DNA of 38,039 nucleotides from positions 1 to 38,039 of the IMG/VR virus record IMGVR_UViG_3300048592_000298. One strand, written 5' to 3'. Position 1 is the stretch's first letter. The number at the start of each line of letters is the position of its first letter. Positions 5,216 through 32,875 of this stretch are shown here, in pieces. A model generated the notes under the pieces. That model was not told the DNA's origin, searched no databases, and saw only the letters and a program-made list of their open reading frames with translations. The position numbers and the translations under genes are program-made. Origin of the DNA: a virus.

Positions 5216-5216
5216 G

Positions 5217-7272: not shown

Positions 7273-7301
7273 CCCCAAAAGCCTCGCCAGGGGGCAATTC
7301 C

Positions 7302-8267
7302 GTGGCGCAGACCACTAACCTCTACGACTCCTACGACAGCAAGGGCAACCGCGAAGACCTCTCGGACATCATCTACAACATCTCGCCGACCGACACGCCG
7401 TTCTTCCAGCTCGCGGGGCGCACCAAGGCCACGAATCCGATGCACGAGTGGCAGACGGATTCGCTCTCGGCGGCCTCGACCTCGAACGCGCTCATCGAAG
7501 GCGATGAGTACGCGCTGGCCGAACCGTCGGCCACCACGCGCGTCAACAACCGCACGCAGATCTTCTCGAAGGTGTACGGGACCTCGGAGTCGCAGCGCTG
7601 GATTGCGAAGGCCGGGCGCGATGACGAGCTTTCGTACATCCGAGGGAAGGCGGCGAAGGAGATCAAGAACGACATCGAGGCGACGCTCCTCAACAACCAG
7701 GCCAGCGTGGCGGGAAACTCGACCACCGCGCGGAGGCTCGGCGGTTTCCCGGCGTGGCTCGCGTCGAACACGAGCTTCGGTTCTGGTGGCTCGGACAACG
7801 GCTTCTCGTCCGGAACGGGTCTCGTCGTCGCGCGAACGAACGGTACCGAGCGGAGCTTCACGGGCACACTGCTCAACGCGGTGTTCCAGGATGCTTGGAC
7901 GAACGGCGGCAATCCGAGTGTGATGCTGATCGGCGGGAAGCAGATGACGGTCTTCGTCGGATTCGACGGCATCGCGTCCCCGCGACACGAGGTTAGTGAT
8001 CGCACGATCTACGATACTGCCGAGGTCTACGTCGGCCCGTTCGGCTCGCTCAAGGTCCTTCTCGACCGCCACATCCGCAAGACGACGAACATCGATCGGG
8101 ATGTGTTCCTGATCGATCCGGATCGCGTCAAGATTGCGATCGGTGACGACTTCCACACGGAGACGCTTGCGAAGATCGGCCACTCCGATCGGGAGGCGAT
8201 GGTCGTTGAGCTGACGCTAGAGGTGTGCAACGAGGCTGCGCACGGTCTCGTGACGGACCTCAACTAG
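7302..8267 (+). CDS. Major capsid protein (SU10 / DUF5309 type)
   Basis: A 321-aa HK97-fold capsid protein. The N-terminal part shows the family pattern REDLSDIIYNISPTDTPFF followed by a Trp in HEWQTDSL; the centre contains the E-loop/P-domain stretch RTQIFSKVYGTSESQ, and the C-terminal part has GPFGSLKVLLDRHI and IDPDRVKIAI, as in DUF5309 proteins. It forms the icosahedral shell. GTG 7302 is 29 bp after the scaffold stop; the region upstream of it is only moderately SD-like (CCAGGGGG). Two hairpins follow the gene. Confidence 0.92.
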   Translation: MAQTTNLYDSYDSKGNREDLSDIIYNISPTDTPFFQLAGRTKATNPMHEWQTDSLSAASTSNALIEGDEYALAEPSATTRVNNRTQIFSKVYGTSESQRWIAKAGRDDELSYIRGKAAKEIKNDIEATLLNNQASVAGNSTTARRLGGFPAWLASNTSFGSGGSDNGFSSGTGLVVARTNGTERSFTGTLLNAVFQDAWTNGGNPSVMLIGGKQMTVFVGFDGIASPRHEVSDRTIYDTAEVYVGPFGSLKVLLDRHIRKTTNIDRDVFLIDPDRVKIAIGDDFHTETLAKIGHSDREAMVVELTLEVCNEAAHGLVTDLN

Positions 8268-8273
8268 TACGAT

Positions 8274-8302
8274 GGCCGGCGGGGGGTGTCTCTCCGCCGG
8301 CC
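8274..8302 (+). terminator. Stem-loop after the capsid gene (9-bp stem)
   Basis: GGCCGGCGG (8274-8282) and CCGCCGGCC (8294-8302) form a perfect stem with an 11-nt loop, seven bases after the capsid stop. There is no T tract, so it is more likely a partial terminator or a 3' stabiliser of capsid mRNA than a full intrinsic terminator. Confidence 0.5.
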
Positions 8303-8320
8303 TCAGTCGTCCACGCAACG

Positions 8321-8338
8321 CCGGCGCGAGAGCGCCGG
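8321..8338 (+). promoter_or_regulatory. Second stem-loop with GAGA tetraloop
   Basis: CCGGCGC (8321-8327), GAGA, GCGCCGG (8332-8338): a perfect 7-bp stem closed by a GNRA-type loop. The 3' arm abuts the GGAGGGGG ribosome-binding site of the gene at 8351. With the first stem it would let downstream genes be made at a lower level than the capsid protein. Confidence 0.45.
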
Positions 8339-8350
8339 AGGGGGCCGGGA

Positions 8351-8719
8351 ATGCACAGCTCAATCCGTCGCGCGGCGAGGTCTCTGCTGCGAAGCGGAGC
8401 GTTTACCGCTACTGCGACTCACGATCTCGGCCCGGGTGCGATGGACGGCTATGACGCTCTCCTCATCCACTACGTGGTGACGAGCTACGCGACGGGAAAC
8501 GTGACGATCAAGGTGTCTGCGATTGCTGACGCTCCTGGGAGCCGCGTTCTCGCGTGCGACAATGCAGCGTGGACGACCTCGGCGATTTCTTCGAACGCTC
8601 AGGGGACGCTCATCGTAAACGCGCCGCTGCCCAGCGACATTCTCGTAACGCTCACGGGGGCGTCGACTCCGGGGATGTCTTTGGCGGTTTACGTCGAGAA
8701 AGTGAAAACGGGACACTAG
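8351..8719 (+). CDS. Hypothetical virion protein after capsid
   Basis: A 122-aa protein with a short basic start (MHSSIRRAARSLLRSGAF), then alternating small and hydrophobic residues typical of a beta-sandwich (VTSYATGNVTIKVSAIAD, TLIVNAPLPSDILVTLTG). It is abutted directly by the next ATG. A capsid decoration or head-closure role is possible from place and fold, but not shown. ATG 8351 has a strong SD (GGAGGGGG). Confidence 0.6.
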   Translation: MHSSIRRAARSLLRSGAFTATATHDLGPGAMDGYDALLIHYVVTSYATGNVTIKVSAIADAPGSRVLACDNAAWTTSAISSNAQGTLIVNAPLPSDILVTLTGASTPGMSLAVYVEKVKTGH

Positions 8720-9031
8720 ATGGCTGCGATTCGCCGGCGATTTTTCGTCGAGTGCGATTCGAGTGGACGAGAGAAGCTCATCCATCACTCGCAGCAGTAT
8801 TTCGGAGATATCCTCGCCGCGAATCGCGCCCTGTATAACGCATCGACGCGAACCACGCAGCTGAACCCCGGGGACGGATGGCGCCACGTTGCGAGCATCC
8901 CCCTCGGCGTGGTCGAGGGCTGGGGCAAACAGGGTGCGTGGATATGGCGTCCGGATGACTGGCAGATCATCAGGCGCATGCTCAACGATTCCGAGTGGTC
9001 GGCCTTGAGGACTGCGCCAGGGAGGCTCTAA
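8720..9031 (+). CDS. Conserved phage head-tail region protein
   Basis: A 103-aa protein of a type often seen between capsid and adaptor genes: GDGWRHVASIPLGVVEGW, a short linker and DDWQIIRRMLNDSEWSALRTAPGRL are the recognisable segments. The C-terminal pattern (LND...LRTAPGR) recurs in many podovirus genomes as a hypothetical protein. It starts immediately after the previous stop and ends immediately before the adaptor start. Function unknown; probably structural. Confidence 0.7.
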   Translation: MAAIRRRFFVECDSSGREKLIHHSQQYFGDILAANRALYNASTRTTQLNPGDGWRHVASIPLGVVEGWGKQGAWIWRPDDWQIIRRMLNDSEWSALRTAPGRL

Positions 9032-9643
9032 GTGGCGATCACGAGCTATGCCACGCTCGCATCCGCGGTCGCCGAGTACAATCCGCACAGTGATACCGGG
9101 ACGAAGGTTTCGCTGTGGGTGTCGCTCGCGGAAGCGCGCATGAATCGCGAGATCCGCGTGAGGCAGCAGCACAAGCAAGAGACGGGATCTCTTGCTGGCG
9201 CCACGGTGACCGTCCCTTACGACTTTCTCGAAACGGTCGATTTCAGGCTAGAGACCACTGGCGGTGGATACTACGAACTTGAACGGAGGCCGCTCGTGGA
9301 TCTCTACGCGCGACGCGCCTCGGTCTTGAGCGGACTGCCCGTCATGTTCGCGCTCGATGGCACGTTGCTGCGCGTTTCGCCGTCTCCGGATAGTACCTAC
9401 GCCTATGTCTGGACGTACGTTTCCGCGATTCCCGGGCTCGAGTCGGCGGGGGTGAATTGGTTGGTGACCGACGCTCCAGATATCTACCTCTACGCGACTC
9501 TCACGGAGGGCGAGCGGTTCTTACAGAACCCGGATGGGTTCGCGTTTTGGGATTCGCAGTACCAGCGCGCTCGCGATTCGCTCATCGGATCCGATCGTCG
9601 CGGTCGGTGGCGCGGCGGGCTTCAGGCGGTGCGCACGCTATGA
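9032..9643 (+). CDS. Head-tail adaptor (SU10 adaptor-like)
   Basis: A 203-aa protein with the adaptor pattern: N-terminal helices (TSYATLASAVAEYN, SLWVSLAEARMNREIRVRQQ), then VPYDFLETVDFRLE and a region of short beta strands, then a long final helix (LTEGERFLQNPDGFAFWDSQ). Such proteins form a ring under the portal and join it to the tail nozzle. The stop overlaps the next ATG (ATGA). GTG 9032 follows the previous stop with SD GGGAGG inside that gene. Confidence 0.8.
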   Translation: MAITSYATLASAVAEYNPHSDTGTKVSLWVSLAEARMNREIRVRQQHKQETGSLAGATVTVPYDFLETVDFRLETTGGGYYELERRPLVDLYARRASVLSGLPVMFALDGTLLRVSPSPDSTYAYVWTYVSAIPGLESAGVNWLVTDAPDIYLYATLTEGERFLQNPDGFAFWDSQYQRARDSLIGSDRRGRWRGGLQAVRTL

Positions 9644-11157
9644 ACGCCAAGATGACATTTGGCGAGTGGCTTCCGGATCTTCCGGCAACCGACGTCGGTG
9701 CGAATCTGACCATCGCAACCGATGTCTACCCCGTCTCGGGTGGGTACCGCCCGTTCCGGCAGATGGCAGACGTTCTCGGTGCCGGATCGCTCGACGCCAC
9801 GTGTTGTGGTGCCGCCTCGGGCCGGAGACGTTCAGACGGGACTCCGTACACTGCCGCCGCGAGCGCATCGAAGCTCTACGTCACGACATCTGCGGGGGTT
9901 CTCTCGGACCACACGCCCGGCACGTGGTCGCTCAGCTCTACGAGTACGTGCAGGTTCGCGCAGTACGGGGATCGGCTCTTCGCATCGGTTCCGGAATACG
10001 GAATACAGGTGCACCTACTCTCCGGAACATCCGCCTTTGCGACGCTTTCGGCGGACTGCCCCTCGGCGCGGTATCTCGCCGTCATCGGCGAGCACCTGGT
10101 AGCGGGGAGCATCGTGGGGCGCGGGGTGAATGCGGGTGCAATCGGTACCGCGCGAGATGCGGTGCAGTGGTGCTTCTTCAGGAATCCCACGCTTTGGCCT
10201 GCCGTGGGGACGGACGCTGCAAAGGCGGGTCTATCGGATTATCGCGTCCTGCCTGGGTTTGGCGGCGAAGTAACGGGGCTCGTCGGTGGACGCGAATACG
10301 GGATCGTGTTCCAGCAGCGTCAGGTTTCGCTTGCGGTACTCGATCCAGGCGGAGCTTATTTTCGCTTTACACCGATCGACGACAAGAACGGGGTGTACAT
10401 TCCTGGCTCGCTCGTGTCGAGCGGATCGACGCACGTGTACTACTCCGAGTCTGGCTGGATGCGGATGGACGGTCCCAACGCTCCGCAGCCGATCGGCTTC
10501 GGCCGGCTCGACGAGTGGTTCCGCGCCGACATGCAGTGGTCCTATGTGCACCGCGTGTCCGCTTGCGCGCATCCCTCTTTGCCGCTCGTCGCGATCTCTT
10601 ATCCTGGTGTCGGCAGCCCCTCTGGGATCGCGAATCGGATTCTCATCTACAACACGACTCTCAATCGGTGGAGCGTGGTGAAGGGCCTCACGCTCGAGTG
10701 GCTCGTCGACGCCACGATCGTAGGGAGCAACGTAGATACTCCGATCTCGTCGGACATTGACGGATCTCCCTTCGACGTGGACGCGGCGGGTGGGACCGGC
10801 TTCCCACAACTCGCGGGTTTTTCGAGTCCGACGCACACGCTCCAAGCGTTTACCGGCAGCGACCTACTCGGGAATCTCATGACTGGAGACATCGAGATCG
10901 AGCCGGGAAAGACCGCTTACGTGAGGGCCGTGCGCCCCGTATACACGGGTGGCGGATCCATCGTGGTGCGCATCTTTGGGCGTTCGACGCCGAGCGATAC
11001 GGCGACGATGCGCGCTCAGGCGCTTCCGAGTGCCGTCGATGGACGCGCTGGGGTTCGGTCGCGCGCGCGGTACCACAGGCTAGAAATCTATACGCTCTCG
11101 AATGCCGGTATCGTCTCGGGCTTCGACGTGGAGTTCGAGCGGGCAGGTGCGCGATGA
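9640..11157 (+). CDS. Tail nozzle-like beta-propeller protein
   Basis: A 505-aa protein rich in short beta strands and in turns such as GGREYGIVFQQRQVSL, SSGSTHVYYSESGWMRM and NRILIYNTTLNRWSVV, which look like propeller blades. Phages with a DUF5309-type capsid have a tail nozzle/stabilisation protein of this size after the adaptor, comparable in place to P22 gp10. It would close the head and form the short tail tube. The call rests on order and predicted fold, not on a signature motif. Confidence 0.65.
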   Translation: MNAKMTFGEWLPDLPATDVGANLTIATDVYPVSGGYRPFRQMADVLGAGSLDATCCGAASGRRRSDGTPYTAAASASKLYVTTSAGVLSDHTPGTWSLSSTSTCRFAQYGDRLFASVPEYGIQVHLLSGTSAFATLSADCPSARYLAVIGEHLVAGSIVGRGVNAGAIGTARDAVQWCFFRNPTLWPAVGTDAAKAGLSDYRVLPGFGGEVTGLVGGREYGIVFQQRQVSLAVLDPGGAYFRFTPIDDKNGVYIPGSLVSSGSTHVYYSESGWMRMDGPNAPQPIGFGRLDEWFRADMQWSYVHRVSACAHPSLPLVAISYPGVGSPSGIANRILIYNTTLNRWSVVKGLTLEWLVDATIVGSNVDTPISSDIDGSPFDVDAAGGTGFPQLAGFSSPTHTLQAFTGSDLLGNLMTGDIEIEPGKTAYVRAVRPVYTGGGSIVVRIFGRSTPSDTATMRAQALPSAVDGRAGVRSRARYHRLEIYTLSNAGIVSGFDVEFERAGAR

Positions 11158-11522: not shown

Positions 11523-11947
11523 GGATCGGTGCGAAGCCCATTACGCGCGATGAGGTCGAATCGGCGTGGCCCGGGATCAAGGGATACGTCGCGGAGGCGC
11601 TTGCGCATGGCACGGGGCGCATGGGCCCAGACGACGTTTTGCGGTATCTCGTTTCAGGCGAGATGCAAGCCTTCATCGTGTTTGACGCAGATGCCGCGAA
11701 ACTCTTGGCGGTGCTCGTGACGGAAGTGATGGACTATCCGACGGCGCGCGTGCTCGACTTGGCGCTTTGTGCCGGAGAGCGTCTCGACCTCTGGATTTCC
11801 GCGCTTCCGTGGCTCGAGGGATTTGCGAAGCAGGCGGGGTGCACGCAGATGCAGGTGCACGGCCGAGCGGGTTGGTCCCGCGTACTCGCGCCGCGCGGAT
11901 TCCGCGAGGCCGCGCGCGTGCTCTTGAAAGGGGTCCGTCATGGGTGA
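11519..11947 (+). CDS. GNAT-like acetyltransferase-fold protein (gp13-like position)
   Basis: A 142-aa protein with the shape of phage GNAT proteins: FIVFDADAAKLLAVLVTEV (strand pair), LDLALCAGERLDLWISALPWLEGFAKQAGC, then MQVHGRAGWSRVLAPRGFREA, where GRAGWSR and the Gly-Phe turn are recurrent family signs. Podoviruses often carry such a protein in the internal-virion block, comparable in place to T7 gp13. No clear acetyl-CoA P-loop (Q/RxxGxG/A) is visible, so enzymatic activity is doubtful. GTG start overlaps the previous stop. Confidence 0.65.
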   Translation: MRIGAKPITRDEVESAWPGIKGYVAEALAHGTGRMGPDDVLRYLVSGEMQAFIVFDADAAKLLAVLVTEVMDYPTARVLDLALCAGERLDLWISALPWLEGFAKQAGCTQMQVHGRAGWSRVLAPRGFREAARVLLKGVRHG

Positions 11948-12710
11948 TTCTGGCGGCAAGACGACGAAGGCCACGGGATTCCGGACGAATATTGCGGAGG
12001 TGCAGCTTCCGGCGTGGTACAACACTGCGCTTCAGGATTTCCAGAACAGCGCCTTGGGCATCTACAACCAGAAGCGCGCGACTCCGCCGCCCTCGATGTA
12101 TGTCGGGCTCGATCCGGCTACTTCGCGCGCGCTTTCGATGACCGAGGCAACCGCGGGCGGGCAATACGGCTCCCAGGTTCCGCGGTCTGCGCTTGCGGAG
12201 TGGCAAAAAACTCTCTCTGGAGGATACGCGGACCCTGCCGCGAATCCTTGGCTACGCGCGGTGGCTGATCGCGCGGGGCTCGAAACCGAGGGGCGCGTGA
12301 ACGCTGCGTATGCGACGGGTGGAGCGGCGGGAGGAGGCGCATACGCGAACGCGCTTGCCGATGCGCTCACTCAGGAGCGCACGCAGTTGTACGCGCAAAA
12401 CTACGACGCCGAGAGGCAGCGTCAGATTGCCGCGCTCGGACTGACTCCGCTCATGGAGCAGATGCAGTATGCCGATGCGGCTCGGCTCGGCTCGGTGGGC
12501 GCGCGGCGCGAAGAGGATGCGCTGGCGAAGGCCACGGAGGAAAATCGCCAGTACATGGCCGATTGGGATGCCCTGGGGCGCTACCAAGACGCGCTGTTCG
12601 GGAATCCGGCACAGCGTGCGATTACCGCGACGGAAAGCGGCACATCGCAAGAGCGCACGGACCAGAGCAACAAGTTCGACTGGGCTGCGTTTCTCGGCGG
12701 TCTGTTCTAG
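11940..12710 (+). CDS. Internal virion / ejection protein candidate A
   Basis: A 256-aa protein, largely helical after a disordered start, rich in Ala, Gln and Arg (ERQRQIAALGLTPLMEQMQYADAARLGSVGARREEDALAKATEENRQYM in pieces). It opens the run of four proteins between the nozzle region and the fibre, the place where podoviruses encode ejected internal proteins. No catalytic motif seen. The C-terminus ends in an aromatic/hydrophobic tail (FDWAAFLGGLF), a common packing signal in such proteins. It overlaps the GNAT-like gene by eight bases. Confidence 0.6.
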   Translation: MGDSGGKTTKATGFRTNIAEVQLPAWYNTALQDFQNSALGIYNQKRATPPPSMYVGLDPATSRALSMTEATAGGQYGSQVPRSALAEWQKTLSGGYADPAANPWLRAVADRAGLETEGRVNAAYATGGAAGGGAYANALADALTQERTQLYAQNYDAERQRQIAALGLTPLMEQMQYADAARLGSVGARREEDALAKATEENRQYMADWDALGRYQDALFGNPAQRAITATESGTSQERTDQSNKFDWAAFLGGLF

Positions 12711-14813: not shown

Positions 14814-16778
14814 ATGGCGGATTTCCTGACAGACGCGGAAATGGAGGCGCTCGAGGCTGGCGAGCGCAGAACCGCTGCGGACGTGGCCGAGATCTCAGAC
14901 GAGCAGATGATGGAGCTCGAAGCGCGTGCGAACGCGAAACCGATTGGTATGGGTCGCGCTGCATTGCGGGGCGCCGTGCAGGGCGTGACCGACCTTGCGG
15001 AGGGTGCGCTTGGCTTCGGCGGGACGCGAGCGCTCCTCGACTCGATCGCGCGATATCGCGGGAAGCAATCCGCGCGAGCCGTATTCGAGACGCTCATGGC
15101 GCCTTACATGCCCCCAGAGCCCGTCACGGAGGACGAGATCACAACGGAACGCGTTGTGAGGTCTGCGACTACCGGAATCCCGATGTCGCTTACCGGGGCG
15201 TCCGCGGTTCCAGCCGCACTCGGTGCGGTGGGTTCCATCACTGGTCCGCTGGCGAGTGAGGTGGTGCGGCGAGGTGGAGGCGGACGAGTCGCGCAGACCG
15301 TGGCTGGCGTGGTGGGTGGCATGGGGCCTGGCATTGCGGGTGGTGCCATGGGTGCCGCGATGCGCGGCAGAAGCGTGCCGCTCGCGGGAGCACGGAGTCG
15401 AGAGGCCGCGGAGCTCGCCGCGGCGGCGGACTTGCGCGGTGCGGTGGGTGCGAGTGCGGTGGAACGCGCGACGCAGCGGTTGCGCGAAGAGGTGCGGGCT
15501 GGCGCGAGTATTCCCGGGCACGCGAGGACCGCGCAGGTGTTGATGGACGATGCACCGGGAGTCGTGGGCTTGGAGGCGGCAGTTGCGCGGCGATTCCCGG
15601 ACATTCAGTCTCGTGCCGCTGCGAGGCTAGACGAGAATCAGGCGGCGGTGAATCTCGCCGAGGACATGATGGCCGGCGCTGGCCCTGACGCTCTCGTGTC
15701 GGGTTGGCGCGATGCGAGAGACATTGCGCGTGCCGGAGTACGGGAAGCCTACGAACGAGTGGATCCCTCATCGGTGGCCACCGTGAGTGCGGGACGCATC
15801 AAGGATGCGGCGCAGCAGATCGTCGAAGAGGCCGGAGAGGAGCTCGCCTCGAAGCTGCCTTCCGAAGTGAATCTGATCGCGCGCTATGGGGATGAGATCG
15901 ACTTCTCGTCGCTCCAGAGACTGCGCACATCGCTATCCGACACCGTTCGCGGCCTGTCCCGAGATCCAGGGAAGGCCACGGACCTACGCTTCGCGCAGCG
16001 TCTGCGATCGTCGGTCGATCAGACCCTCGACGATCTCGCGCAATCCGGGCAGGGCGCCGCGCCGGCGTTGAGGGAGGCGATCACGAGGCGTGCAGAGTTT
16101 GGCAGGCTCTTCGATCAGCGACATCCGGCGGTACGGGCACTTGAACAGAACGAGAGAGCGACGGCAGTCGTTGACACGATCGCGAGCGGTGGAACGAAAC
16201 GCCCCGTCGAAGAAGCGCGCCGGGTGATAGAGGCCGTGGGCCGAGATACGCAGGCGCACGAGGGGTTGAAGCGAATGTGGCTCGATCGCGCGCTCGGTGG
16301 ACAATCGTTGTGGGATGCGCGCTCGGAATCATCGATTCAGTTCCTGCGAAAGAATGCCGCGGCGTCAAGTGTGATTCTCGGGCAAGAGGGGCATGCCGCT
16401 GCGCTTCGGCTGATCGAGCGTGTCCGCAATCTTCGATTCGGTCGCGTTGGCACGCGGGGAATGGCGCTCGGGACGGGATCCTCCATTCCTGAATCCGGCG
16501 AGCTTGCTGACTCGGCTGGTTCCGCGCTCCTCGCCCTGTTGCGCGGTCGGCCCGGGCAGGCCGCATCGGTTGCAGCAGGGAAAGCTTATGATTGGCTCGT
16601 GAGGTCGACTACACCCCAGATGCGCTCCGAGATCCTCGCAGATGCGCTCATGGATCCGCAGCAGGCAATTAATCTGCTCGAAAGCGCGAGACCCGAGAGA
16701 CTCGAAGCGTTCCTTGCGTCTGCGCGGAGTCACGTTGCGCGGCAGGCGGCACGGCAAGCCGCGACGGAGAGCGAATAG
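14814..16778 (+). CDS. Large internal virion / ejection protein candidate C
   Basis: A 654-aa protein with two hydrophobic Gly/Ala-rich segments at about residues 120-185 (SLTGASAVPAALGAVGSITG and VAGVVGGMGPGIAGGAMGAA) that could insert into membrane, followed by ~450 residues of charged helix. This architecture resembles ejected core proteins that help DNA cross the cell envelope. There is no lysozyme or protease motif that I can see. It is adjacent to candidate B (stop one base before ATG) and precedes the fibre. Confidence 0.6.
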   Translation: MADFLTDAEMEALEAGERRTAADVAEISDEQMMELEARANAKPIGMGRAALRGAVQGVTDLAEGALGFGGTRALLDSIARYRGKQSARAVFETLMAPYMPPEPVTEDEITTERVVRSATTGIPMSLTGASAVPAALGAVGSITGPLASEVVRRGGGGRVAQTVAGVVGGMGPGIAGGAMGAAMRGRSVPLAGARSREAAELAAAADLRGAVGASAVERATQRLREEVRAGASIPGHARTAQVLMDDAPGVVGLEAAVARRFPDIQSRAAARLDENQAAVNLAEDMMAGAGPDALVSGWRDARDIARAGVREAYERVDPSSVATVSAGRIKDAAQQIVEEAGEELASKLPSEVNLIARYGDEIDFSSLQRLRTSLSDTVRGLSRDPGKATDLRFAQRLRSSVDQTLDDLAQSGQGAAPALREAITRRAEFGRLFDQRHPAVRALEQNERATAVVDTIASGGTKRPVEEARRVIEAVGRDTQAHEGLKRMWLDRALGGQSLWDARSESSIQFLRKNAAASSVILGQEGHAAALRLIERVRNLRFGRVGTRGMALGTGSSIPESGELADSAGSALLALLRGRPGQAASVAAGKAYDWLVRSTTPQMRSEILADALMDPQQAINLLESARPERLEAFLASARSHVARQAARQAATESE

Positions 16779-16779
16779 A

Positions 16780-17709
16780 ATGTCAGCCATCGAATCATGG
16801 TCCACGACGGCCGCATCGAACAACGCCTCGGCGCCGAACGGATGGCCGGAAAACATGTCGAGCGCGGGACTGAATGACTCGGGTCGCGAGATGATGGCGG
16901 CACTGAAGACGTGGTACAACGATCCGGAGTGGCTCAACCGAAACTACGGGGCCACGATCACGCGGTTGTCGACCACCCAGTTCCGTGTGGTCGGTCAAGA
17001 CGCTACGGCATGGTTTTCCACGAATCGCCGAGTGAAGATCGTCGGTTCGTCCACCGACCACGGATTCGTCGAAAGCTCGAGCTTCTCGACCGATACGACG
17101 GTCACCGTGACGATGGACTCCGGAGATGTTCCCGCGAGCCCGACGCTTGCGCTCGTGCACCACAGTGCGACGATTGCACGCGCAGCGTTCACCGGAGCCG
17201 TTCCGACCGGCGTTTCGTTGCCGTGGTCGGGCGCCATTGCGCAGATCCCGTCCGGGTATCTCCTCGAGGATGGCTCCGAGGTGGCGAAGGCCACCTATCC
17301 GGACTTGTGGGCGGCGTTCGGTTCTGCGCACATCTACGGGACGCCGTCGAATCCCACGCTCAACTTCCTCCTGCCGAACAAGGGTGGGAAGGTGTTCGTG
17401 GGGTATGTCGCTGGCGGCGATGGCGATGGTGACTACGGGACGGTAGGTGCGACGGGCGGCGAGAAGAAGCACGCGCTGGCCGACACGGAGTTGCCCGCGA
17501 TGGCGTCGGGCGGCACGCATGCGCACACAGTACCGTTCACCGGCGACGCGCCCGTCGTGACGGCGGCCGGCGGCAACGCAGCGGCGACGCAGAACCATAC
17601 CCACGCGATCAGCGGGGACGGTGCTCACACGCATACATACACCGGCACGGGGACTTCGCACGAAAACAGGCCACCGTTCATTGTCGGCGCATGGATCATC
17701 AAGACGTGA
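16780..17709 (+). CDS. Tail fibre with phage collar domain
   Basis: A 309-aa fibre. The N-terminal segment (GWPENMSSAGLNDSGREMMAALKTW) is a typical attachment region of podovirus fibres. After a short beta stalk, the C-terminal half is a phage tail-collar domain: AQIPSGYLLEDGSEVAKATYP, GTPSNPTLNFLLPN, GKVFVGY, then a His-rich stretch (GGTHAHT, NHTHAIS, AHTHTYT) and ENRPPFIVGAWIIKT. The paired HxH repeats usually bind metal along a trimer axis. It probably contacts the host receptor. Confidence 0.85.
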   Translation: MSAIESWSTTAASNNASAPNGWPENMSSAGLNDSGREMMAALKTWYNDPEWLNRNYGATITRLSTTQFRVVGQDATAWFSTNRRVKIVGSSTDHGFVESSSFSTDTTVTVTMDSGDVPASPTLALVHHSATIARAAFTGAVPTGVSLPWSGAIAQIPSGYLLEDGSEVAKATYPDLWAAFGSAHIYGTPSNPTLNFLLPNKGGKVFVGYVAGGDGDGDYGTVGATGGEKKHALADTELPAMASGGTHAHTVPFTGDAPVVTAAGGNAAATQNHTHAISGDGAHTHTYTGTGTSHENRPPFIVGAWIIKT

Positions 17710-17720
17710 GGGGGAGAGGC

Positions 17721-18437
17721 ATGATTCGTTACGTGTTCGTTTTTGCGCTCGCCTGCGCCGCTCAAGCGGCTCAGGCGCAGGTCAAGGTCGACCTCTACAC
17801 GGCGGCCGGTGTCTCCACATCCGAGGACTTCTCGGGATGCGCTGACGTCTCCGTCCGTGGGGATCAATCGGTTTCGGACGCATCGACCGATGCGAAGCTC
17901 GAGGTACTCGCCTGCCGCGGATCGGCGGATGCGTGGTCATCCTGCGCGGTGCTCCGAACGATCCCTGGTGACATTGCAGACGGCTCCGCGGCTTCGATTG
18001 GAGCGCCTCCGGCCGATCGCCCATACCTGATGACCCGTGCCGCGGTGTCTCCGTCGAGTGATACCGCGCGAGTCATTCTCGCGTGCGAGGAATATGCGTC
18101 CGCGAGAGAGCGTGGGTGTCGCGTGGTTCCGTTCGCCGCGTCCGGTGCGGGAACCTACGGGCCCTATACCATCTACGGGCAAACGCTGCGCTTCGACCTC
18201 GACGGCAACGCGACGAGCAGCTCGGATACTACCGGCGCGACGGCCGAAGTGACCGGGAATACGGATTTCGGCACGCTCACGTTTTCTTCGTGCGATCTCG
18301 TAGGCGGTGACGACGCATGCGCGGTGTATGACGGGACGACGGGGGCGGCTGGCTTCGTGGCCACGGCGCCGCGGACGGTGAGCGTCGAGATCACGGCTGC
18401 GGCGAATCCCGGCACTTTCACGCTTTGCGCGTGGTAG
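17721..18437 (+). CDS. Sec-exported Cys-rich protein A
   Basis: A 238-aa protein with a clear signal peptide: basic MIR, hydrophobic core YVFVFALACAAQAAQ and a probable AQA cleavage site about residue 20. The mature part is beta-rich, Ser/Thr-rich and has several spaced cysteines (SGCADV, VLACRG, SSCAVL, RGCRVV, SSCDLV, DDACAV, LCAW), suggesting disulfides formed outside the cytoplasm. It follows the fibre by 11 bp with SD GGGGAGAGG. Export of a tail-region protein is unusual. It might be an envelope-located exclusion or adhesion factor, or a spike partner; none is proved. Confidence 0.75.
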   Translation: MIRYVFVFALACAAQAAQAQVKVDLYTAAGVSTSEDFSGCADVSVRGDQSVSDASTDAKLEVLACRGSADAWSSCAVLRTIPGDIADGSAASIGAPPADRPYLMTRAAVSPSSDTARVILACEEYASARERGCRVVPFAASGAGTYGPYTIYGQTLRFDLDGNATSSSDTTGATAEVTGNTDFGTLTFSSCDLVGGDDACAVYDGTTGAAGFVATAPRTVSVEITAAANPGTFTLCAW

Positions 18438-18448
18438 GAGATTTCAAA

Positions 18449-21079
18449 ATGCGTCGCCTTCTCTACGCTTTCGCCATCCTGTTGGCTCCCGCTACCGCGC
18501 TGTCCGAGACGTGCACCGTCACGACCTCGGCCACGTGGACCTCGGCGACGCAGGATATTTCCGCAACGTGCACCGAGGATGCGTCGGACACGTTCGTTTT
18601 TGACGACGGCGCCACGGTCACGATTGCGGAAGGAACCGCGATCACCGTGGCGAAAGCGATCGTCACTGGTGGGGCGCTCGTCGTAAGCGGAACGCTCAAC
18701 CTGACGGGCTGCAACGATGCGGACGCGCGGGTCTACGGGAACGCTCCGTGCGGTGCTACGAGCGGAACGTTCAGCGTGCAGGGCCGCGTGTTGCACGATT
18801 CCGTTGTGGACGGCGCCATTTTCACGCAGATGACGAAGCAGACGTCGGACGCTTCGCGGATGCGGCTCAACTTCAACGCGACTCCGAGCGGCGGCAATTT
18901 CGCAGCCGGCGACATTCTGTGGTTCGAGAGCGGTCCTGCGAAGCATCACGCCTACCGCGTGGCAGCGGTGAACACGGCTGGGTGTGCGAGCGCGACGGTT
19001 GCGACCTGCTACATCGACATCGAGATGTACCGGAGCGGCACGGCATTCGGTACGTCTGCGTTTCCTGATACGGCCAACTACGCGCGGAACATCGCGTATC
19101 CAGACACCTCGGGCTCGCCGTCTGCGCCGTCCTTCAACGGTGGACGGTTGGCGAGTACCGCCAACGCAAACTACGTCACGAACGGGCTCGACAAGAAGGT
19201 TGTCGTATGCTCCGCAGGGGCAAGTCCGTGCACGGCGTCTGCGCTGCTTGCGGCGAACGGTGCCTATACGGGGTGGTACTACGCTGCACAAGAGACGGGG
19301 ACAGGCGTTTACACCGATGCTTCCCTCATCACGCGAACGATGATCGTGAATAGCGAGAATGACGTAGCCACGCCGATCTCTGGAGATTCCGGCACCGTCG
19401 ACGTGCTGCACTTGATTGATCCGGTGCCCCTTGATGACCTTCTGTCGGCTGGGAATCTCTCCGTTAGTGTGCGCACTCCGAACGGGATCATCTGGCCAGG
19501 CTTCTGGAACGCCGATGCGTGGAAGCTAATCCGTCCCGCGCAAGTTTTCTATACGGGGAGCGAGCCGGATGGAAACTTCGGAGTGTACGGCCCAGATGGA
19601 TGCTTCGATGTGGATTACGGGCATCTGAAGGATTTCGCCGTGGTCTCCGTCGCGGGCGGCACGAGTGCGACAACGGCGCAGACCTCTTGCACGGCGCCGT
19701 TTTCGTATACGCTCGTGCAAGAGTACGGCGGAGGAAACGGGACTGAGTTGACACACGCGTCCAACGGCGGGGGGTGCGATCTCCAAGCGGTGGACCTGGC
19801 GCACTGGGCGAGCGTTTCCGTATCGAACCTTGCGATCACGGACCACCGGACGCCGGCGAATACCACGACGACATGTTGCGCGACGGGTGGAAGTGGTGCG
19901 TCGTGTGCATCTGGAACCGGCAACCTCGCGTCGAACGACGATACGACGAGCGCGGTTCATGGGCTCTATCTATACAACGCGACGAACGTATCGGTCACCG
20001 GCTACTACGGTCGATATATCGGCGATGACATGCTCCTATGGACTGTCACCTCCGCAGTGCCGGAGTCTGGCATGACGCTCGCAGTGGACGGCGCCGTGTG
20101 CTGGTGGCTCGCACAGGGGACGAGTGGGGAATGTATGAGCACGGCGAGTGCAGCGCGCCCCGTTGTAGTGACGGCGACCGACGTCGTGTCGATCAACGGC
20201 AACGCAGGCGCGAAGAACGGATGCTCACTCGGCATCGTGAGCACGACTCCGAGCGCGACTGAGAGCGTGTCCGTTTCGCGAGCGGTGCTGATCGACAACC
20301 GCTCGAGTGCTCCCGGCGTCTACAACTACGCCGGAAACTCGGGCGGATCGCTCTCGAATGCGTTCCTCTTTGCGCGAGATCAGGACGGTGGGACGTCGGC
20401 GCGGACATGCTCTGCCGCAAACGCGACGAATCTCGCAGGGAACTGGATTGATGGATGGGCTGCCATTGCCACCGGTACGACGGGACAATCTGTAACGCGA
20501 ACGTTCTGGCAGCCGGAAGCGTCGAGCTCGCCGGGTTCGGCAATGATGGCCTCACAGCCCAGCGTGGATCACGTCTACACGAACAATCACTTTCAGGGTC
20601 TTCCGGTGCAGCCCATCACGGATTCCGCGGCGAACGGTTCCACGCTCGCCGTGCGGAATAACTTCTTCGGTTGGTCGGCAGTCGCGCAGAACGCGCTCGG
20701 CGTTCGGAGCGACGGGTCGCAGCCGATTGTCGATGTGTCGTACAACGTGTTTGACGGTGCCACGATGTTCAACTGTGTCGGAACGACGTGGGGCGGCCTC
20801 TACGGCGCAAACATTCACGACAACATGATTTCGAACAATGCTGGGGGCGCGAACCCGGCCGTGTCGAACATGAATCGCTGCACTGGGATCGGCGCGGTTC
20901 ACTTGTTGAACTCGTCTCATTATCTGCTCGGTGGCTTGCTCCCGTCGCTTCCGAGCGGATACGGGCCGCAGGGAAGAGTAGGCATCGGGGATCGTTCGCT
21001 TCTCGACGAACTCGACATCCGATCTCCTTTCAGAATCAAGGCCGGCGGCGGTAGTGGATGGATTCCGAAGGGGTACTGA
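18449..21079 (+). CDS. Sec-exported beta-helix protein B
   Basis: An 876-aa protein with an N-terminal signal peptide (MRRLLYAFAILLAPATALSE, likely cleavage after ALS). The next region has the ladder pattern of a right-handed beta-helix (FDDGATVTIAEGTAITVAK, then GALVVSGTLNLTG), comparable in look to G8/pectate-lyase-like exoproteins, and cysteines occur in spaced pairs over the chain. It could be a polysaccharide-binding or depolymerising spike, but a Sec signal argues for secretion or surface display. SD TAGGAG lies eight bases before ATG 18449. The stop overlaps the next ATG (TGATG). Confidence 0.7.
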   Translation: MRRLLYAFAILLAPATALSETCTVTTSATWTSATQDISATCTEDASDTFVFDDGATVTIAEGTAITVAKAIVTGGALVVSGTLNLTGCNDADARVYGNAPCGATSGTFSVQGRVLHDSVVDGAIFTQMTKQTSDASRMRLNFNATPSGGNFAAGDILWFESGPAKHHAYRVAAVNTAGCASATVATCYIDIEMYRSGTAFGTSAFPDTANYARNIAYPDTSGSPSAPSFNGGRLASTANANYVTNGLDKKVVVCSAGASPCTASALLAANGAYTGWYYAAQETGTGVYTDASLITRTMIVNSENDVATPISGDSGTVDVLHLIDPVPLDDLLSAGNLSVSVRTPNGIIWPGFWNADAWKLIRPAQVFYTGSEPDGNFGVYGPDGCFDVDYGHLKDFAVVSVAGGTSATTAQTSCTAPFSYTLVQEYGGGNGTELTHASNGGGCDLQAVDLAHWASVSVSNLAITDHRTPANTTTTCCATGGSGASCASGTGNLASNDDTTSAVHGLYLYNATNVSVTGYYGRYIGDDMLLWTVTSAVPESGMTLAVDGAVCWWLAQGTSGECMSTASAARPVVVTATDVVSINGNAGAKNGCSLGIVSTTPSATESVSVSRAVLIDNRSSAPGVYNYAGNSGGSLSNAFLFARDQDGGTSARTCSAANATNLAGNWIDGWAAIATGTTGQSVTRTFWQPEASSSPGSAMMASQPSVDHVYTNNHFQGLPVQPITDSAANGSTLAVRNNFFGWSAVAQNALGVRSDGSQPIVDVSYNVFDGATMFNCVGTTWGGLYGANIHDNMISNNAGGANPAVSNMNRCTGIGAVHLLNSSHYLLGGLLPSLPSGYGPQGRVGIGDRSLLDELDIRSPFRIKAGGGSGWIPKGY

Positions 21080-21765
21080 TGCGCGATCAATCCAGACACC
21101 TCGGAGCGAAGCGAACCGAGGATCTCGCACCGATGCGAGCGATTCGGACGACAGCACCGTATCGGCGCGTCAGGAAGGAGAGGCGTCGCGAGGAAACGTC
21201 ACTCCGCGGAATCATCATCGGCATGAAGCACGAGATCGGCGGGCGCGAAATCCCGCTCGACTCGCTCACACTGCAAGGCATCGAGGCGCGCGAGGAAGGG
21301 GGCGTGCGCCTCGACAAGTGGGGGAGGACGCATTCGGACCGCTCCGCGTGGCGAAGTTTCTTGGCCGGCTTCGCGCTCGCGTGCGCATTCGTCGCAGGAC
21401 CCGCGCGTGCGGCCGAGGTGACGGGGGGCGAGCTATTCCCGTCGACGCCGGGAATCGGTCCGACCGTTGCGTGTACGGAGCCGACGACGCAATCCGACGG
21501 CCGTCCGCTCGGAGCAACGCTCGCAGCCGGCGGGCTCGCGGGATGCTTCGCGTCGATCAAAGACAACGCGAACGTCGTCGCGTGGGAAGGGTGGCTACGT
21601 CCTCCGGTGCCATCGGGCGGCGCGCGACACGACCTCGGCGCGAATCTCCCTCTCGACGTCACGCGCTACCCCGTCGCGATCTCGTGCGCGTGCTTCAACG
21701 CGATGGGCTGGGGTCCATCGGCCGTCGGTCGCGTGTCGCTCGTGCTCATCCGCGAAGGAGAGTAG
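21079..21765 (+). CDS. Signal-like hydrophobic protein C
   Basis: 228 aa from ATG 21079. Around residues 94-112 there is a signal-like segment (FLAGFALACAFVAGPARAAEV) after a long basic N-terminal part. An in-frame GTG at 21304 preceded by GAGGAAGG would place this segment near the N-terminus of a 153-aa exported protein, which is more natural for Sec export; the upstream 75 codons look coding too, so I keep the longer frame and flag the choice. The distal part has Cys pairs (VACTEP, GCFAS, SCACFN). Third member of the exported cluster after the fibre. Confidence 0.55.
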   Translation: MRDQSRHLGAKRTEDLAPMRAIRTTAPYRRVRKERRREETSLRGIIIGMKHEIGGREIPLDSLTLQGIEAREEGGVRLDKWGRTHSDRSAWRSFLAGFALACAFVAGPARAAEVTGGELFPSTPGIGPTVACTEPTTQSDGRPLGATLAAGGLAGCFASIKDNANVVAWEGWLRPPVPSGGARHDLGANLPLDVTRYPVAISCACFNAMGWGPSAVGRVSLVLIREGE

Positions 21766-22086
21766 GTGGACGCCGAGACGCGTGTCGAGTTCGAGCGACG
21801 CGACAAGCTCAATATGTGGCTCGGCGGTCTCGCATTATCCGTCTCCGTCACCTTCGGCTCGTGCGCACTCGAGCGCGCGTTCACCGCGCACGCGCAAGTT
21901 GCATCGATGGAGGCGCGGCAGACGAACGCCTCGGCGAAGGACCAGGAGCACGATGCGGCCATCGAAAAGGCGACCGAGACACGAGAGCGTGTCATCCGGA
22001 TCGAGGGAAAGGTCGAGGGCATCGTGGGCACGCTCGCCGATCAGCAGCGGATCCTAGAAGAGATCCGCCGCGAGGTACGGAAATAA
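21766..22086 (+). CDS. Membrane-anchored coiled-coil lysis protein (spanin/XhlA-like)
   Basis: A 106-aa protein with one N-terminal transmembrane segment (MWLGGLALSVSVTFGSCAL) and a charged helical rest with coiled-coil character (ERVIRIEGKVEGIVGTLADQQRILEEIRREV). The layout fits an inner-membrane spanin subunit or a small lysis-associated protein; XhlA-type proteins have the reverse order, so spanin-like is preferred. It lies next to the muramidase-like gene, whose ATG uses the last base of its stop. GTG 21766 directly follows the previous TAG. Confidence 0.55.
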   Translation: MDAETRVEFERRDKLNMWLGGLALSVSVTFGSCALERAFTAHAQVASMEARQTNASAKDQEHDAAIEKATETRERVIRIEGKVEGIVGTLADQQRILEEIRREVRK

Positions 22087-22505
22087 TGCCGACCCTTCAA
22101 CCGCGCGGAATCCGCAACCACAACCCCGGGAACCTCGAACGAGTGCGCGGCGTCACCTGGCGCGGGCAAGCGCCGCGGCAGACTGATCCGCGCTTCGTCG
22201 TCTTCACCTCGCCGCGCTGGGGCATTCGTGCCATGGCCCGCGTGCTCACGACCTACTACGAGCGCAGAAACCTTCGCACGGTGCGCGCGATCATCTCGCG
22301 ATGGGCTCCGCCCGCGGAAAACCGAACGCATGCCTACATCCTCGCCGTGGCATCGCGTCTCGGCGTCGGCGTCGATCAGCCGATTACGCGCGATGAGGGT
22401 ACATGGGTGCTGCTCTGCGCTGCAATCACGCGGCACGAGAACGGCACCGATCCGTACCACGCAGACGTCTACCGCGAGGCGATCCGCCTTGCGTGGGGAG
22501 GGTGA
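22086..22505 (+). CDS. Endolysin / lytic-transglycosylase-like protein
   Basis: A 139-aa protein with the family pattern GIRNHNPGNLERV, then WRGQ, FVVFTSPRWGIRAMARVL, IISRWAPPAENRTHAYI and a C-terminal ITRHENG. This matches the structural protein P5-like muramidases found in phage lysis regions. It would cleave peptidoglycan in the periplasm; no signal peptide or SAR segment is visible, so release would depend on the holin at 22512. It starts on the last base of the previous stop (TAATG). Confidence 0.8.
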   Translation: MPTLQPRGIRNHNPGNLERVRGVTWRGQAPRQTDPRFVVFTSPRWGIRAMARVLTTYYERRNLRTVRAIISRWAPPAENRTHAYILAVASRLGVGVDQPITRDEGTWVLLCAAITRHENGTDPYHADVYREAIRLAWGG

Positions 22506-22511
22506 ATCATC

Positions 22512-23060
22512 ATGACGAATCGCACCGATCCCGGGGCCCGAGATCCGAGCCCCCCGATCTACAAGCTCCTTCGCGCCGGTATGGCGGGCCTGATCGCGAC
22601 GGCCGTCACGTGGCTCGTCTCTCACGGGATTCTCGGCGAGGCCGAGCGCGGCGTCGTCGAAGAGGCCTCGGTCATCGTGATCATGGGTGCGATCATGGCA
22701 TTCGGCGCGTACGCGCGCGACCGAGGGTGGTCGATCGGCGCGTTTCTTGCCGTGCCGCTCGCCTTCGTCCTCGGCGGCTCGCTCGCGTGCGCCTCGATCC
22801 CGCAGCCTCCGGCCGAGGCCTACGCGGCGACCCTCGGCACGTACCGCGCGTTGGCCGGCGGGATGGCGGCCTACTGCGCGTCGCCAGAGGCCGAGCCGGA
22901 TCCGTGCGTGCGCGCGGCGAAGGCGACGATTCAAGCCGATCGCGCAATCGACGCGCTCGAGGGACTGATCCGCTCGGGGGATGCAACCGACTCCGCGTAC
23001 TCGGCAGCCGAAGTTCAACTGCGCGACGCCATGCCGTCGCTCATGGAGGTGCAGCCGTGA
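22512..23060 (+). CDS. Holin-like protein with periplasmic tail
   Basis: A 182-aa protein with three hydrophobic segments: GMAGLIATAVTWLVSHGIL, VIVIMGAIMAFGAYA and IGAFLAVPLAFVLGGSLAC. These fit a holin. After the third comes a ~90-residue soluble tail (SIPQPPAEAYAATLGTYRAL to the end) with Cys pairs that resembles separate small lipoprotein-like lysis proteins of other phages; here both parts are one chain. The SLAC site does not match a proper lipobox. Start ATG 22512 is six bases after the endolysin stop. Confidence 0.65.
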   Translation: MTNRTDPGARDPSPPIYKLLRAGMAGLIATAVTWLVSHGILGEAERGVVEEASVIVIMGAIMAFGAYARDRGWSIGAFLAVPLAFVLGGSLACASIPQPPAEAYAATLGTYRALAGGMAAYCASPEAEPDPCVRAAKATIQADRAIDALEGLIRSGDATDSAYSAAEVQLRDAMPSLMEVQP

Positions 23061-29419: not shown

Positions 29420-29565
29420 CGGATCGCCTCGGGAGTGATGCGCAGGGCGTCGCGCTCGCGCTCTATCTCGGCGACACGACTGCGGAGGCTGGCGCACGCA
29501 TCCTCGCGCACCTCGCTCGACTGCCATGCTCCGCACCATGCGCAGACGACGTGCCATGTAGTCAC
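29416..29565 (-). CDS. Zinc-knuckle protein A (49 aa), paralog of 32729-32875
   Basis: A 49-aa protein starting [20 protein letters not shown], followed by a Cys and a coiled-coil-like tail (RSRVAEIERERDAL). GTG 29565 overlaps the methyltransferase stop (GTGA). The first ~21 codons are almost identical to zinc protein B, but the second half is different and lacks B's second CxxC. It thus has an incomplete zinc site and may be a recombinant or decayed copy. Confidence 0.6.
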   Translation of the reverse strand: MTTWHVVCAWCGAWQSSEVREDACASLRSRVAEIERERDALRITPEAIR

Positions 29566-30356
29566 GATGCGGCCTCGTCGTCGCGCGGCATCTCGATCTG
29601 TTCCGGCGCCGGCGCTCGCGTCGGCTCGAAGCGCAGTACCGATTGCGCGAGCCGCTTCGCAGCCATCTCGCAGTAGCGCTCCTCGATCTCGATCCCGATG
29701 GCGCGGCGTCCGAGCAGCTTCGCGGCGACGAGCGTTGTGCCGACCCCCATGAAAGGATCAAGCACCGTCTCGCCTTCCTTGCACGCCGAGACAAGCCATC
29801 CGAGGAGGTCGACGGGCTTCTGCGCGATATGCAGCTTGTCGTCGCCACGAGGACTCGGGCATCGCACGACACCGGGCAGATATGCCGCTAGGTCGTTCGG
29901 CCCGTTCGTTCCCCACACGATGTACTCGGATTGAGCGCAGAGCCGCGCCTGAGGGCGAGCGGCTTCCGTCTTGTCCCACACGCCGATGCCGCGCCACACC
30001 CACCCACCAGCCTGCATCGCATCTGTGGTCACCGGCAACTGCCGCCAGTCTGTGAATAGCGCACAGAAGGCACCTGTCTGCGCCGCCTTGTGCGCTGCCG
30101 CAAGCCAGAGCGAGCACCACGCGAGGTAAGAACGGGCGTCGCGGTTGTCGCCGCTGAATTCCTGCCTCGCAACAATAGTGCCGGTCTGCACATACTTCGC
30201 CACGGTAGACCGCACGCGATCCCCGCGAAACTGGCCGCCGCTAGAGTACGGCGGATCGGTAATGACCGCCCCGAGGTCGCTCAACTCATGAAGAACGTCG
30301 AAGCAGTTCCCGTGGTAAATCGTGATTCCGTCCTCGTCGTAGTAGGGCGTAGTCAC
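29562..30356 (-). CDS. DNA adenine/cytosine-N4 methyltransferase A (beta class)
   Basis: A 264-aa protein with the beta-class order: motif IV ITDPPYSSGG (residues 32-41) near the N-terminus and the SAM-binding motif VLDPFMGVGTTLVAA near the C-terminus, then [14 protein letters not shown]. The start [12 protein letters not shown] is the shared signature of the three copies in this window. DPPY favours N6-adenine methylation. No restriction endonuclease gene is visible, so it looks like an orphan enzyme, perhaps protecting phage DNA from host restriction. GTG 30356 overlaps the upstream stop (GTGA) and aligns with paralog B; GTG 30368 is longer. Confidence 0.85.
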   Translation of the reverse strand: MTTPYYDEDGITIYHGNCFDVLHELSDLGAVITDPPYSSGGQFRGDRVRSTVAKYVQTGTIVARQEFSGDNRDARSYLAWCSLWLAAAHKAAQTGAFCALFTDWRQLPVTTDAMQAGGWVWRGIGVWDKTEAARPQARLCAQSEYIVWGTNGPNDLAAYLPGVVRCPSPRGDDKLHIAQKPVDLLGWLVSACKEGETVLDPFMGVGTTLVAAKLLGRRAIGIEIEERYCEMAAKRLAQSVLRFEPTRAPAPEQIEMPRDDEAAS

Positions 30357-30667
30357 AGCGCGAGCCACAGCGCGTCCTCGGCCGCAGCGTCTCGCTCCGC
30401 GGCGATCTCGACGAGCGTCGGGCCGTCCGTGACCGGCACGGATGACGGTCCATCGTAGGGCGCGTGGTTGAGTAGCTCCGCGACGAACCCGCCTTCGCTG
30501 TTGGCGTGGTAGCGGAGCCAGTCTGCGACCGCGCGCACCTTTCCGCGCAGCCGCGCCAGCTCGTTGAGGATCGCATCCGCTTCGTCATCGGCGAGAGCAT
30601 TCTTTGCGCCGCCGATGATCTGGCGCAGCGACTCCTCGGCGTCTGCGAGAATGCCTACCTCGGCCAC
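30353..30667 (-). CDS. Hypothetical early protein
   Basis: 104 aa from GTG 30667, with GGAGG seven bases upstream (GTG 30670 is next to it). Helical and acidic (ADAEESLRQIIGGAKNALADDE, ILNELARLRGKVRAVADWLRYH), with a short strand region (SSVPVTDGPTLVEIAAERD). No recognised domain. Overlaps the methyltransferase A start. Confidence 0.55.
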   Translation of the reverse strand: MAEVGILADAEESLRQIIGGAKNALADDEADAILNELARLRGKVRAVADWLRYHANSEGGFVAELLNHAPYDGPSSVPVTDGPTLVEIAAERDAAAEDALWLAL

Positions 30668-32735: not shown

Positions 32736-32875
32736 GCATCCTCCTTCGCGGCGTACCGCGCGAGCAGACACTCGGCGCAAATCGTGTGCGACGTCGCCTC
32801 GGACTCGGAGCCCTCGCGCACCTCGCTCGACTGCCATGCTCCGCACCATGCGCAGACGACGTGCCATGTGGTCAC
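32729..32875 (-). CDS. Zinc-ribbon protein B (48 aa), paralog of 29416-29565
   Basis: A 48-aa protein with a complete zinc site: HVVCAWCGAW and HTICAECLLARY, two C-x2-C knuckles 21 residues apart, then a Cys end. The GTG 32875 overlaps the methyltransferase B stop exactly as in copy A. Codons 1-21 and the flanking methyltransferase end are nearly identical between the two copies. It is probably the intact form. Function unknown, but linked to a methyltransferase twice. Confidence 0.65.
   Translation of the reverse strand: MTTWHVVCAWCGAWQSSEVREGSESEATSHTICAECLLARYAAKEDAC

Follow-up and report, generated by a model that had tools for sequence, protein, structure and literature searches.

Tail fibres and spikes are usually regarded as cytoplasmic products. 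The locus described here raises the question of what genes with N-terminal export signals do when they directly follow a tail-fibre gene. The window, i.e. the whole stretch of DNA that was analysed, comprises the 38,039 nucleotides of virus record IMGVR_UViG_3300048592_000298. A preliminary description pointed to three successive genes with a signal peptide or signal-like segment behind the tail fibre, one of them coding for a presumed beta-helix protein of 876 aa.

Gene order around the collar fibre

The record represents a P22/HTVC010P-like short-tailed phage with TerL, portal, capsid, gp4-type and gp10-type proteins in order. The three genes of interest (P238, P876 and P228) sit between the tail-fibre and lysis genes, in the late fibre-lysis block:

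16780..17709, plus strand: collar tail fibre, 310 aa, with a canonical fibre N-domain (N-domain alignment), PF07484 (E 9e-07) and PHROG tail families
17721..18437, plus strand: P238, an orphan of 238 aa; predicted Sec-type signal peptide at residues 1-20, followed by a mature part with 8 cysteines
18449..21079, plus strand: P876, an orphan of 876 aa; predicted Sec-type signal peptide at residues 1-19, followed by a mature part with 20 cysteines
20576..20830, plus strand: residues 710-794 of P876, four beta-helix-coil-like motifs at spacings of 25, 28 and 26 residues
21079..21765, plus strand: P228 (153 aa if read from GTG 21304); hydrophobic AxA segment at 21358-21414, then 4 cysteines
21766..22086, plus strand: small protein with a single hydrophobic stretch and a C-terminal part that is charged
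22086..22505, plus strand: endolysin, the first of the lysis genes (phrog_873, E 1.2e-55)

The collar fibre has no signal peptide according to our custom signal rule, and the docking motif of its N-domain occurs in the window in this fibre only, being absent from P876 and P238. An analogue of the small protein is present in a related lineage, here called G014 (L116:1957-2193). A promoter scan of positions 16500-22600 gave no hit, which carries little weight, since 0.8 would be expected by chance.

Signal segments and cysteines

Both P238 (MIRYVFVFALACAAQAAQA, predicted cut before Q) and P876 (MRRLLYAFAILLAPATA, predicted cut before LS) start with a signal segment of the n/h/c type with a good Shine-Dalgarno sequence in front; positive n-region, uncharged hydrophobic core and AxA-type cleavage site are all present. 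The signal calls derive from a custom rule and not from SignalP; this rule recovers seven of eight reference signals, and its rate of false calls is 1.3% for internal pseudo-starts (9 of 716) and 3-5% for composition shuffles (150-247 of the 5000 made for each protein). It is positive for four of the 24 N-termini listed: those at 17721, 18449 and 21304, and that of 22512, where the hydrophobic segment comes late. None of the nine upstream virion genes receives a signal call, and their cysteines are few. Given complete n/h/c patterns and ribosome sites at both starts, the earlier assignment of signal peptides to 17721-18437 and 18449-21079 stands, and the sequence gives good support to the prediction that at least two of the three proteins are sent out of the cytoplasm.

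The mature parts contain 8 (P238), 20 (P876) and 4 (third protein) cysteines – every count is even. Cysteines make up 32 of 1192 residues in the three mature parts versus 9 of 2890 in the nine upstream virion genes (Fisher p 1e-10), an abundance that is partly due to DNA composition, because P238 and P876, the two larger genes, are equally rich in cysteines or richer when read out of frame. From these features, we infer that P238 and P876 are exported, cleaved and disulphide-bonded.

The signal of P228 is weaker. Coding in its frame sets in at about 21150, and candidate starts with good ribosome sites are found at 21079 and 21304. The hydrophobic AxA segment is a signal peptide only with start 21304; start 21079 places it at residues 94-112. 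As 93 residues may precede the segment, it could equally well be a membrane anchor as a signal, and P228 may stay in the membrane instead of being secreted. The proposed row of three signal genes is therefore upheld for P238 and P876 and depends, for P228, on the downstream start. A fibronectin-like domain, suggested by eye for the C-terminal part of P228, gained no support from a Pfam sub-segment search.

Fold and relatives of the orphans

None of the three proteins matches a family in Pfam, PHROGs or NCBIfam; for P876, this holds for the whole protein and, in Pfam, for sub-segments too. Neither a tail family for P876 (PHROGs) nor a lysin domain in any of the three (Pfam, PHROGs, NCBIfam) was detected, and the endolysin is a separate gene. 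Relatives are likewise missing: tblastn found none for the three proteins in phages and none for P876 in plasmids, and peptide-pattern scans gave none for P876 or P238 in viral contigs and none for P876 in genome contigs. No relative of P876 was found in 24 related virus records or in sets of 385 and 398 bacterial genomes, where the query's sole positive control was its own record. One match in 10 genomes or records (E 0.011) has three internal stops and was taken as chance, and a comparison with PDB sequences returned a single chance-level row, a cucumber copper protein (E 0.25).

P876 contains five coil-like motifs, four of which are spaced 25-28 residues apart; 2 of 2000 shuffles reach five, for a motif framed after the protein had been read. 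AlphaFold2 with single sequences gave a pLDDT of 31.5 for P876 and 34.5 for P238, and the structure prediction proposed for 18449-21079 has thus established no fold. The coil motifs speak for the presumed beta-helix of the 876-aa protein, which neither the low-confidence model nor a family match confirms.

Comparable loci

That fibres normally lack a signal peptide, much as the preliminary description said of tail spikes, fits our survey: 80 viral loci share the N-domain of the fibre, the fibre carries a signal in zero of them, and a single locus encodes a large signal-bearing protein downstream of it, a beta-helix of the pectate-lyase type. At this locus, L217, a signal-less S74 fibre is followed by a signal-bearing pectate-lyase-type beta-helix. 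Prophage fibres with a signal number zero of nine read, from 13 matching genomes among 385 (L145 gave no fibre ORF, and L148-L150 were left out). Prophage L135, with related head and tail genes, has no signal-bearing gene after the fibre. Signal calls in ORFs of at least 120 aa amount to 15 distinct ones of 1295 (ATG starts only), counted over loci of which many are fragments and some overlap. The setting of a large, putatively exported protein after a fibre is rare.

In the G014 lineage (L101, L113-L118), a signal-less spike of the pectate-lyase type lies beside a signal-bearing tail fibre. The signal of this fibre is conserved (79% identity) and fused precisely to the docking domain of canonical type; the cleaved form begins where signal-less fibres begin. 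P238 and P876 share no sequence homology with the G014 fibre or the L217 beta-helix. Small signal-bearing ORFs (80-154 aa) downstream of the fibre occur in survey loci and also in L116 and L151; by tblastn, P238 resembles none of them. Among the papers listed by searches of open-access literature, none dealt with tailed-phage fibres or spikes that carry a signal; as these searches take in few subscription papers and no bioRxiv preprints, this is weak evidence of novelty.

Possible role of the putatively exported proteins

We put forward, at roughly even confidence, that P238 and P876 are accessory late exported proteins, with P876 being spike-like, glycan-acting and additional to the virion fibre. 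Both would be produced late, alongside virion and lysis proteins, exported by Sec, cut by signal peptidase I and oxidised in the periplasm, where disulphide bonds would form. For P876, a spike-like beta-helix is the most likely fold; the protein would bind or cut a host glycan, in the envelope or in the matrix, either outside the producing cell's cytoplasm or as a soluble protein after release at lysis; it could clear or cover receptor and matrix, so that progeny escape and do not re-adsorb. P238 might be a partner or a second binding protein, and P228 is probably membrane-bound. Fold, glycan target and purpose are inferred; the genes and their order, the signal-like N-termini, the cysteine content, the rare arrangement and the comparable cases in other phages were observed directly.

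We favour this accessory role because of the signal patterns with ribosome sites, the high and even cysteine counts and the coil motifs, because a separate signal-less collar fibre exists, and because L217 and the G014 lineage are comparable and exported spike or fibre folds have precedents in bacteria. Against it stand the lack of relatives anywhere searched, the absence of the arrangement from nearly all relatives and from the nearest prophage read, the 1-5% false calls of the signal rule, the low confidence of both structure models and the partial dependence of the cysteine counts on DNA composition. Of the roles suggested at the outset, that of secreted polysaccharide-active proteins is favoured by the sole comparable locus, L217, but may not extend to P228, which is possibly anchored rather than secreted. 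Lysogen-modifying proteins are not favoured: the genes belong to the late block of fibre and lysis genes, and lysogenic conversion was dropped, as no integrase was found among the subset of ORFs scanned.

The exported proteins could instead be virion fibres or spikes that mature in the periplasm, where they would fold, trimerise and become disulphide-bonded, and that attach to progeny tails once lysis brings the compartments together. The G014 signal, which abuts a canonical docking domain exactly, agrees with such a route, and in P22 tailspikes are known to be added late, to particles that are already complete. However, a docking domain of the G014 type was not found in P876 or P238, and in all three cases – window, G014 and L217 – a signal-less fibre or spike is already on the virion; we consider periplasmic maturation of virion parts unlikely. 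A low probability is also given to envelope proteins that have nothing to do with fibres and serve surface or superinfection exclusion; they would hide or modify the receptor on the infected cell. Signal peptides, cysteines, the location away from head genes and the possible membrane anchor of P228 suit them, but the late position next to lysis genes is poor timing, a family match is missing, and a length of 876 aa would greatly exceed the usual size of known exclusion proteins.

Lysis-linked exported proteins, of a kind often located between fibre and endolysin, might have been enlarged here. The small signal-bearing ORFs downstream of the fibre in the survey, L116 and L151 are in line with this; yet P876 is far larger than 80-154 aa and P238 unlike any of them by tblastn, which leaves a very improbable explanation for these two, while it may apply to P228 alone. 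There is, finally, a slim chance that the hydrophobic N-termini play no part in export and belong to ordinary virion proteins or to misread starts. The false calls of the signal rule allow for this, but it has to contend with two adjacent genes that combine complete n/h/c patterns with ribosome sites right at their starts, and with nine upstream virion genes that have few cysteines and no signal calls.

A broader and rather doubtful view is that some short-tailed phages divide the production of receptor-binding proteins between the two sides of the inner membrane: dedicated fibres or spikes would be exported by Sec, acquire disulphides in the periplasm and meet the particles only at lysis, with the window, G014 and L217 as three separate inventions. 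Such fibres or spikes would dock on particles or act beside them as soluble decoys or depolymerases. If true, some virions may be completed outside the cytoplasm, and effects credited to virions, such as receptor binding, depolymerase haloes or exclusion, may in part come from dedicated secreted proteins. The G014 fibre, with its signal and intact docking domain, makes the question testable with a single protein.

Comparison with known systems

P876 is like P22-type tailspikes and pectate-lyase-type spikes in size, position beside the fibre and coil-like motifs; those spikes have a docking domain and no signal, whereas in P876 a signal is predicted and a docking domain of that kind was not found. 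Lys44 and T4 RI are phage proteins exported by Sec for lysis (PMC6116005). The likeness would lie in late phage proteins leaving through Sec before lysis; in contrast to those two, which serve lysis, the focal proteins have no lysin match and the phage has a separate endolysin.

Exported proteins of spike or fibre type are also described in bacteria. WceF of Pantoea stewartii is a tailspike-like stewartan hydrolase with a solved trimer and a Tat signal, encoded in an exopolysaccharide cluster; it is a spike-type beta-helix with an export signal and acts on the cell's own exopolysaccharide (PMC7949094). P876 may have a similar make-up, but it is phage-encoded and Sec-type, and its beta-helix is putative. 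The MAT fibres of Bdellovibrio are phage-fibre-like adhesins exported with signal peptides (PMC10769870). They are proteins of a predatory bacterium and would resemble the window proteins in being exported; a relation in sequence was not seen.

Among related short-tailed phages, the G014 fibre and the L217 beta-helix would be counterparts of P238 and P876, each being an extra, putatively exported protein of fibre or spike type beside a signal-less fibre or spike.

Phage identity and host

The window takes in an entire IMG/VR virus record (38,039 bases, 65.6% GC). Its gene content makes it a P22/HTVC010P-like short-tailed phage: TerL shares 47.9% identity with its counterpart in the Pelagibacter phage HTVC024P, and the genes for the portal, the capsid and the gp4-type and gp10-type ('stabilization', phrog_3287) proteins, each matched in relatives, stand in the usual order. 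Rhodospirillaceae and Defluviicoccus genomes contain TerL copies 55-56% identical to that of the window; hence, our guess is a likely alphaproteobacterial host. IMG/VR holds close relatives of the head genes in L011 (TerL 99%) and L091-L093, and none of the window genes past the one at 11940 is matched in their contigs. Compared with window positions 7302-11157, the L091-L093 capsid is 83-90% identical and the adjoining gp4-/gp10-type proteins only 45-59%, a sharp fall along the operon between close relatives. Between portal and scaffold, the ORF 4920-5906 (+) matches phrog_1574 in segment 5232-5903 (E 2e-20), with a weak match to a glycosyltransferase family (phrog_12406, E 0.0015). DNA methyltransferases are encoded twice in this small genome, at 29565-30368 (-) and 32872-33903 (-), and both genes belong to phrog_67.

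Candidate signal-bearing genes between fibre and lysis

The block from collar fibre to endolysin contains six genes:

16780-17709, collar fibre (PF07484)
17721-18437, P238 (238 aa), full signal-peptide pattern, good ribosome site
18449-21079, P876 (876 aa), full signal-peptide pattern, good ribosome site
21079-21765, P228 (228 aa), hydrophobic segment, N-terminal only from GTG 21304
21766-22086, small protein with a single hydrophobic segment
22086-22505, endolysin (phrog_873)

The preliminary description proposed three exported, cysteine-containing proteins behind the tail fibre. For P238 and P876 the signals are borne out by complete patterns, called by a home-made rule, together with good ribosome sites. 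For P228 the hydrophobic segment is present, but coding in this frame already starts at about 21150, upstream of the GTG that would place it N-terminally. Because coding precedes 21304 and both candidate starts (21079 and 21304) have good ribosome sites, the segment could be either a signal or a membrane anchor. All three proteins are orphans, to which conservation cannot be applied.

Their mature parts contain 8 (P238), 20 (P876) and 4 (P228) cysteines, together 32 of 1192 residues. This is far above the upstream virion proteins, where the nine encoded between 9032 and 17709 have 9 in 2890 (Fisher p 1e-10); out-of-frame readings of P238 and P876 contain equal or higher numbers of cysteines. 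The even numbers would fit disulphide pairs, a pattern with a chance of 1/8.

The beta-helix proposed for P876 is not established: single-sequence AlphaFold2 gave no usable model, and none of the sequence and family libraries searched gave a meaningful match. A coil-type motif nevertheless supports it: there are five copies, including those at residues 710, 735, 763 and 789. Only 2 of 2000 shuffled sequences reach five, an optimistic figure since the motif was defined after P876 had been read. The same motif occurs six times in the evident beta-helix of the viral contig L217, and 0 or 1 times in P238 and five virion proteins (portal, capsid, gp10-type, the 14814-16778 product and collar).

Rarity among fibre loci

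Loci were collected by alignment of the window fibre's N-terminal domain, and the best 80 of 398 viral loci were surveyed, a sample that leans toward fibres resembling this signal-less one. In agreement with the expectation that fibres normally lack a signal, none of these 80 fibres carries one. Among ORFs of at least 90 aa within 4 kb downstream of the fibre in these best 80 loci, 10 of 243 received a signal call, as against 0 of 125 ORFs upstream; the sole one of the ten longer than 154 aa is in L217. Relatives of P238, P876 or P228 are encoded in none of the 80. A broader fibre N-domain alignment matched 13 of 385 alphaproteobacterial genomes, and the nine prophage fibres read from these matches are all signal-less. 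Between its capsid and gp4-type genes, a Rhodospirillaceae prophage (L135) has a signal-bearing ORF of opposite orientation, at 3599-4246 (-).

Putatively exported fibre and spike types in other phages

L217, a short-tailed phage or prophage, encodes an S74 tail fibre without signal (6998-7963, PF13884) and directly 3' of it, at 8424-9596 (+), a signal-bearing pectate-lyase-type beta-helix of 390 aa. Its N-terminus reads MKRLLALFIALFACVALA/QTVPP (slash, cleavage point), and the mature start GGSPNGVTDNTAAWRAAV...VYFPPGHY is, we take it, that of pectate-lyase-type spikes. Pfam gave no match for this protein; the single match in 398 genomes is a bacterial protein carrying GNGVTDDTTAIRNAI...VSFPAGTY (E 3.5e-6). 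A class 3 lipase gene lies downstream (11622-12203).

In the G014 lineage (L101, L113-L118), whose gp10-type protein is 33-35% identical to that of the window, the fibre itself bears the signal; it is encoded immediately 3' of the ejection protein gene (L101:9525-10526 (-)) and is arguably more striking than the window. The sequence starts MKRYIIAALALLAIPALA/AEVQDWN...ENMSPALVNDAIRA; past the cleavage point follows the canonical N-terminal docking domain, beginning where signal-less fibres begin. A relative lineage at 79% identity retains the signal in 15 of 18 residues, the other three being Ile/Val/Leu exchanges. G014 also encodes a pectate-lyase-type spike without signal (PF12708, E 1.1e-12), and the 79% relative has a matching one. 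L116-L118 add a small second signal-bearing gene after the fibre. The L116 copy (1619-1960), with two cysteines in its mature part, and a small signal-bearing protein beside the fibre of a different phage (L151:1020-1739 (-)) both end in a Trp...Cys-Leu pattern by eye; perhaps they represent one widespread small periplasmic phage protein.

Interpretation and known systems

The sequences suggest three mutually non-homologous cases of a phage that combines a signal-less fibre or spike with an additional exported protein, two of them of fibre or spike type and the window suspected to be so. We infer export, cleavage, disulphides, fold and target alike: the proteins would be made late, sent via Sec and oxidised in the periplasm, and would act there or after lysis on host glycans or receptors. 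P876 is not classed as a tailspike, because it has a signal pattern and shows no canonical docking domain, and it is unlikely to be the only receptor binder, because a separate signal-less collar fibre exists; it may work like a tailspike outside the cell. The G014 fibre has kept a docking domain, which would be of no use to a factor that is only soluble; for this lineage we therefore favour either attachment to virions once exported or a recent origin from a virion fibre.

In the open-access library searched, we found no account of a tailed-phage fibre or spike that bears a signal. Lys44 and T4 RI are known phage proteins whose export serves lysis (PMC6116005). Bacteria are known to export proteins with phage spike or fibre folds: WceF is a tailspike-like stewartan hydrolase that carries a Tat signal (PMC7949094), and Bdellovibrio has MAT fibres with signal peptides (PMC10769870).
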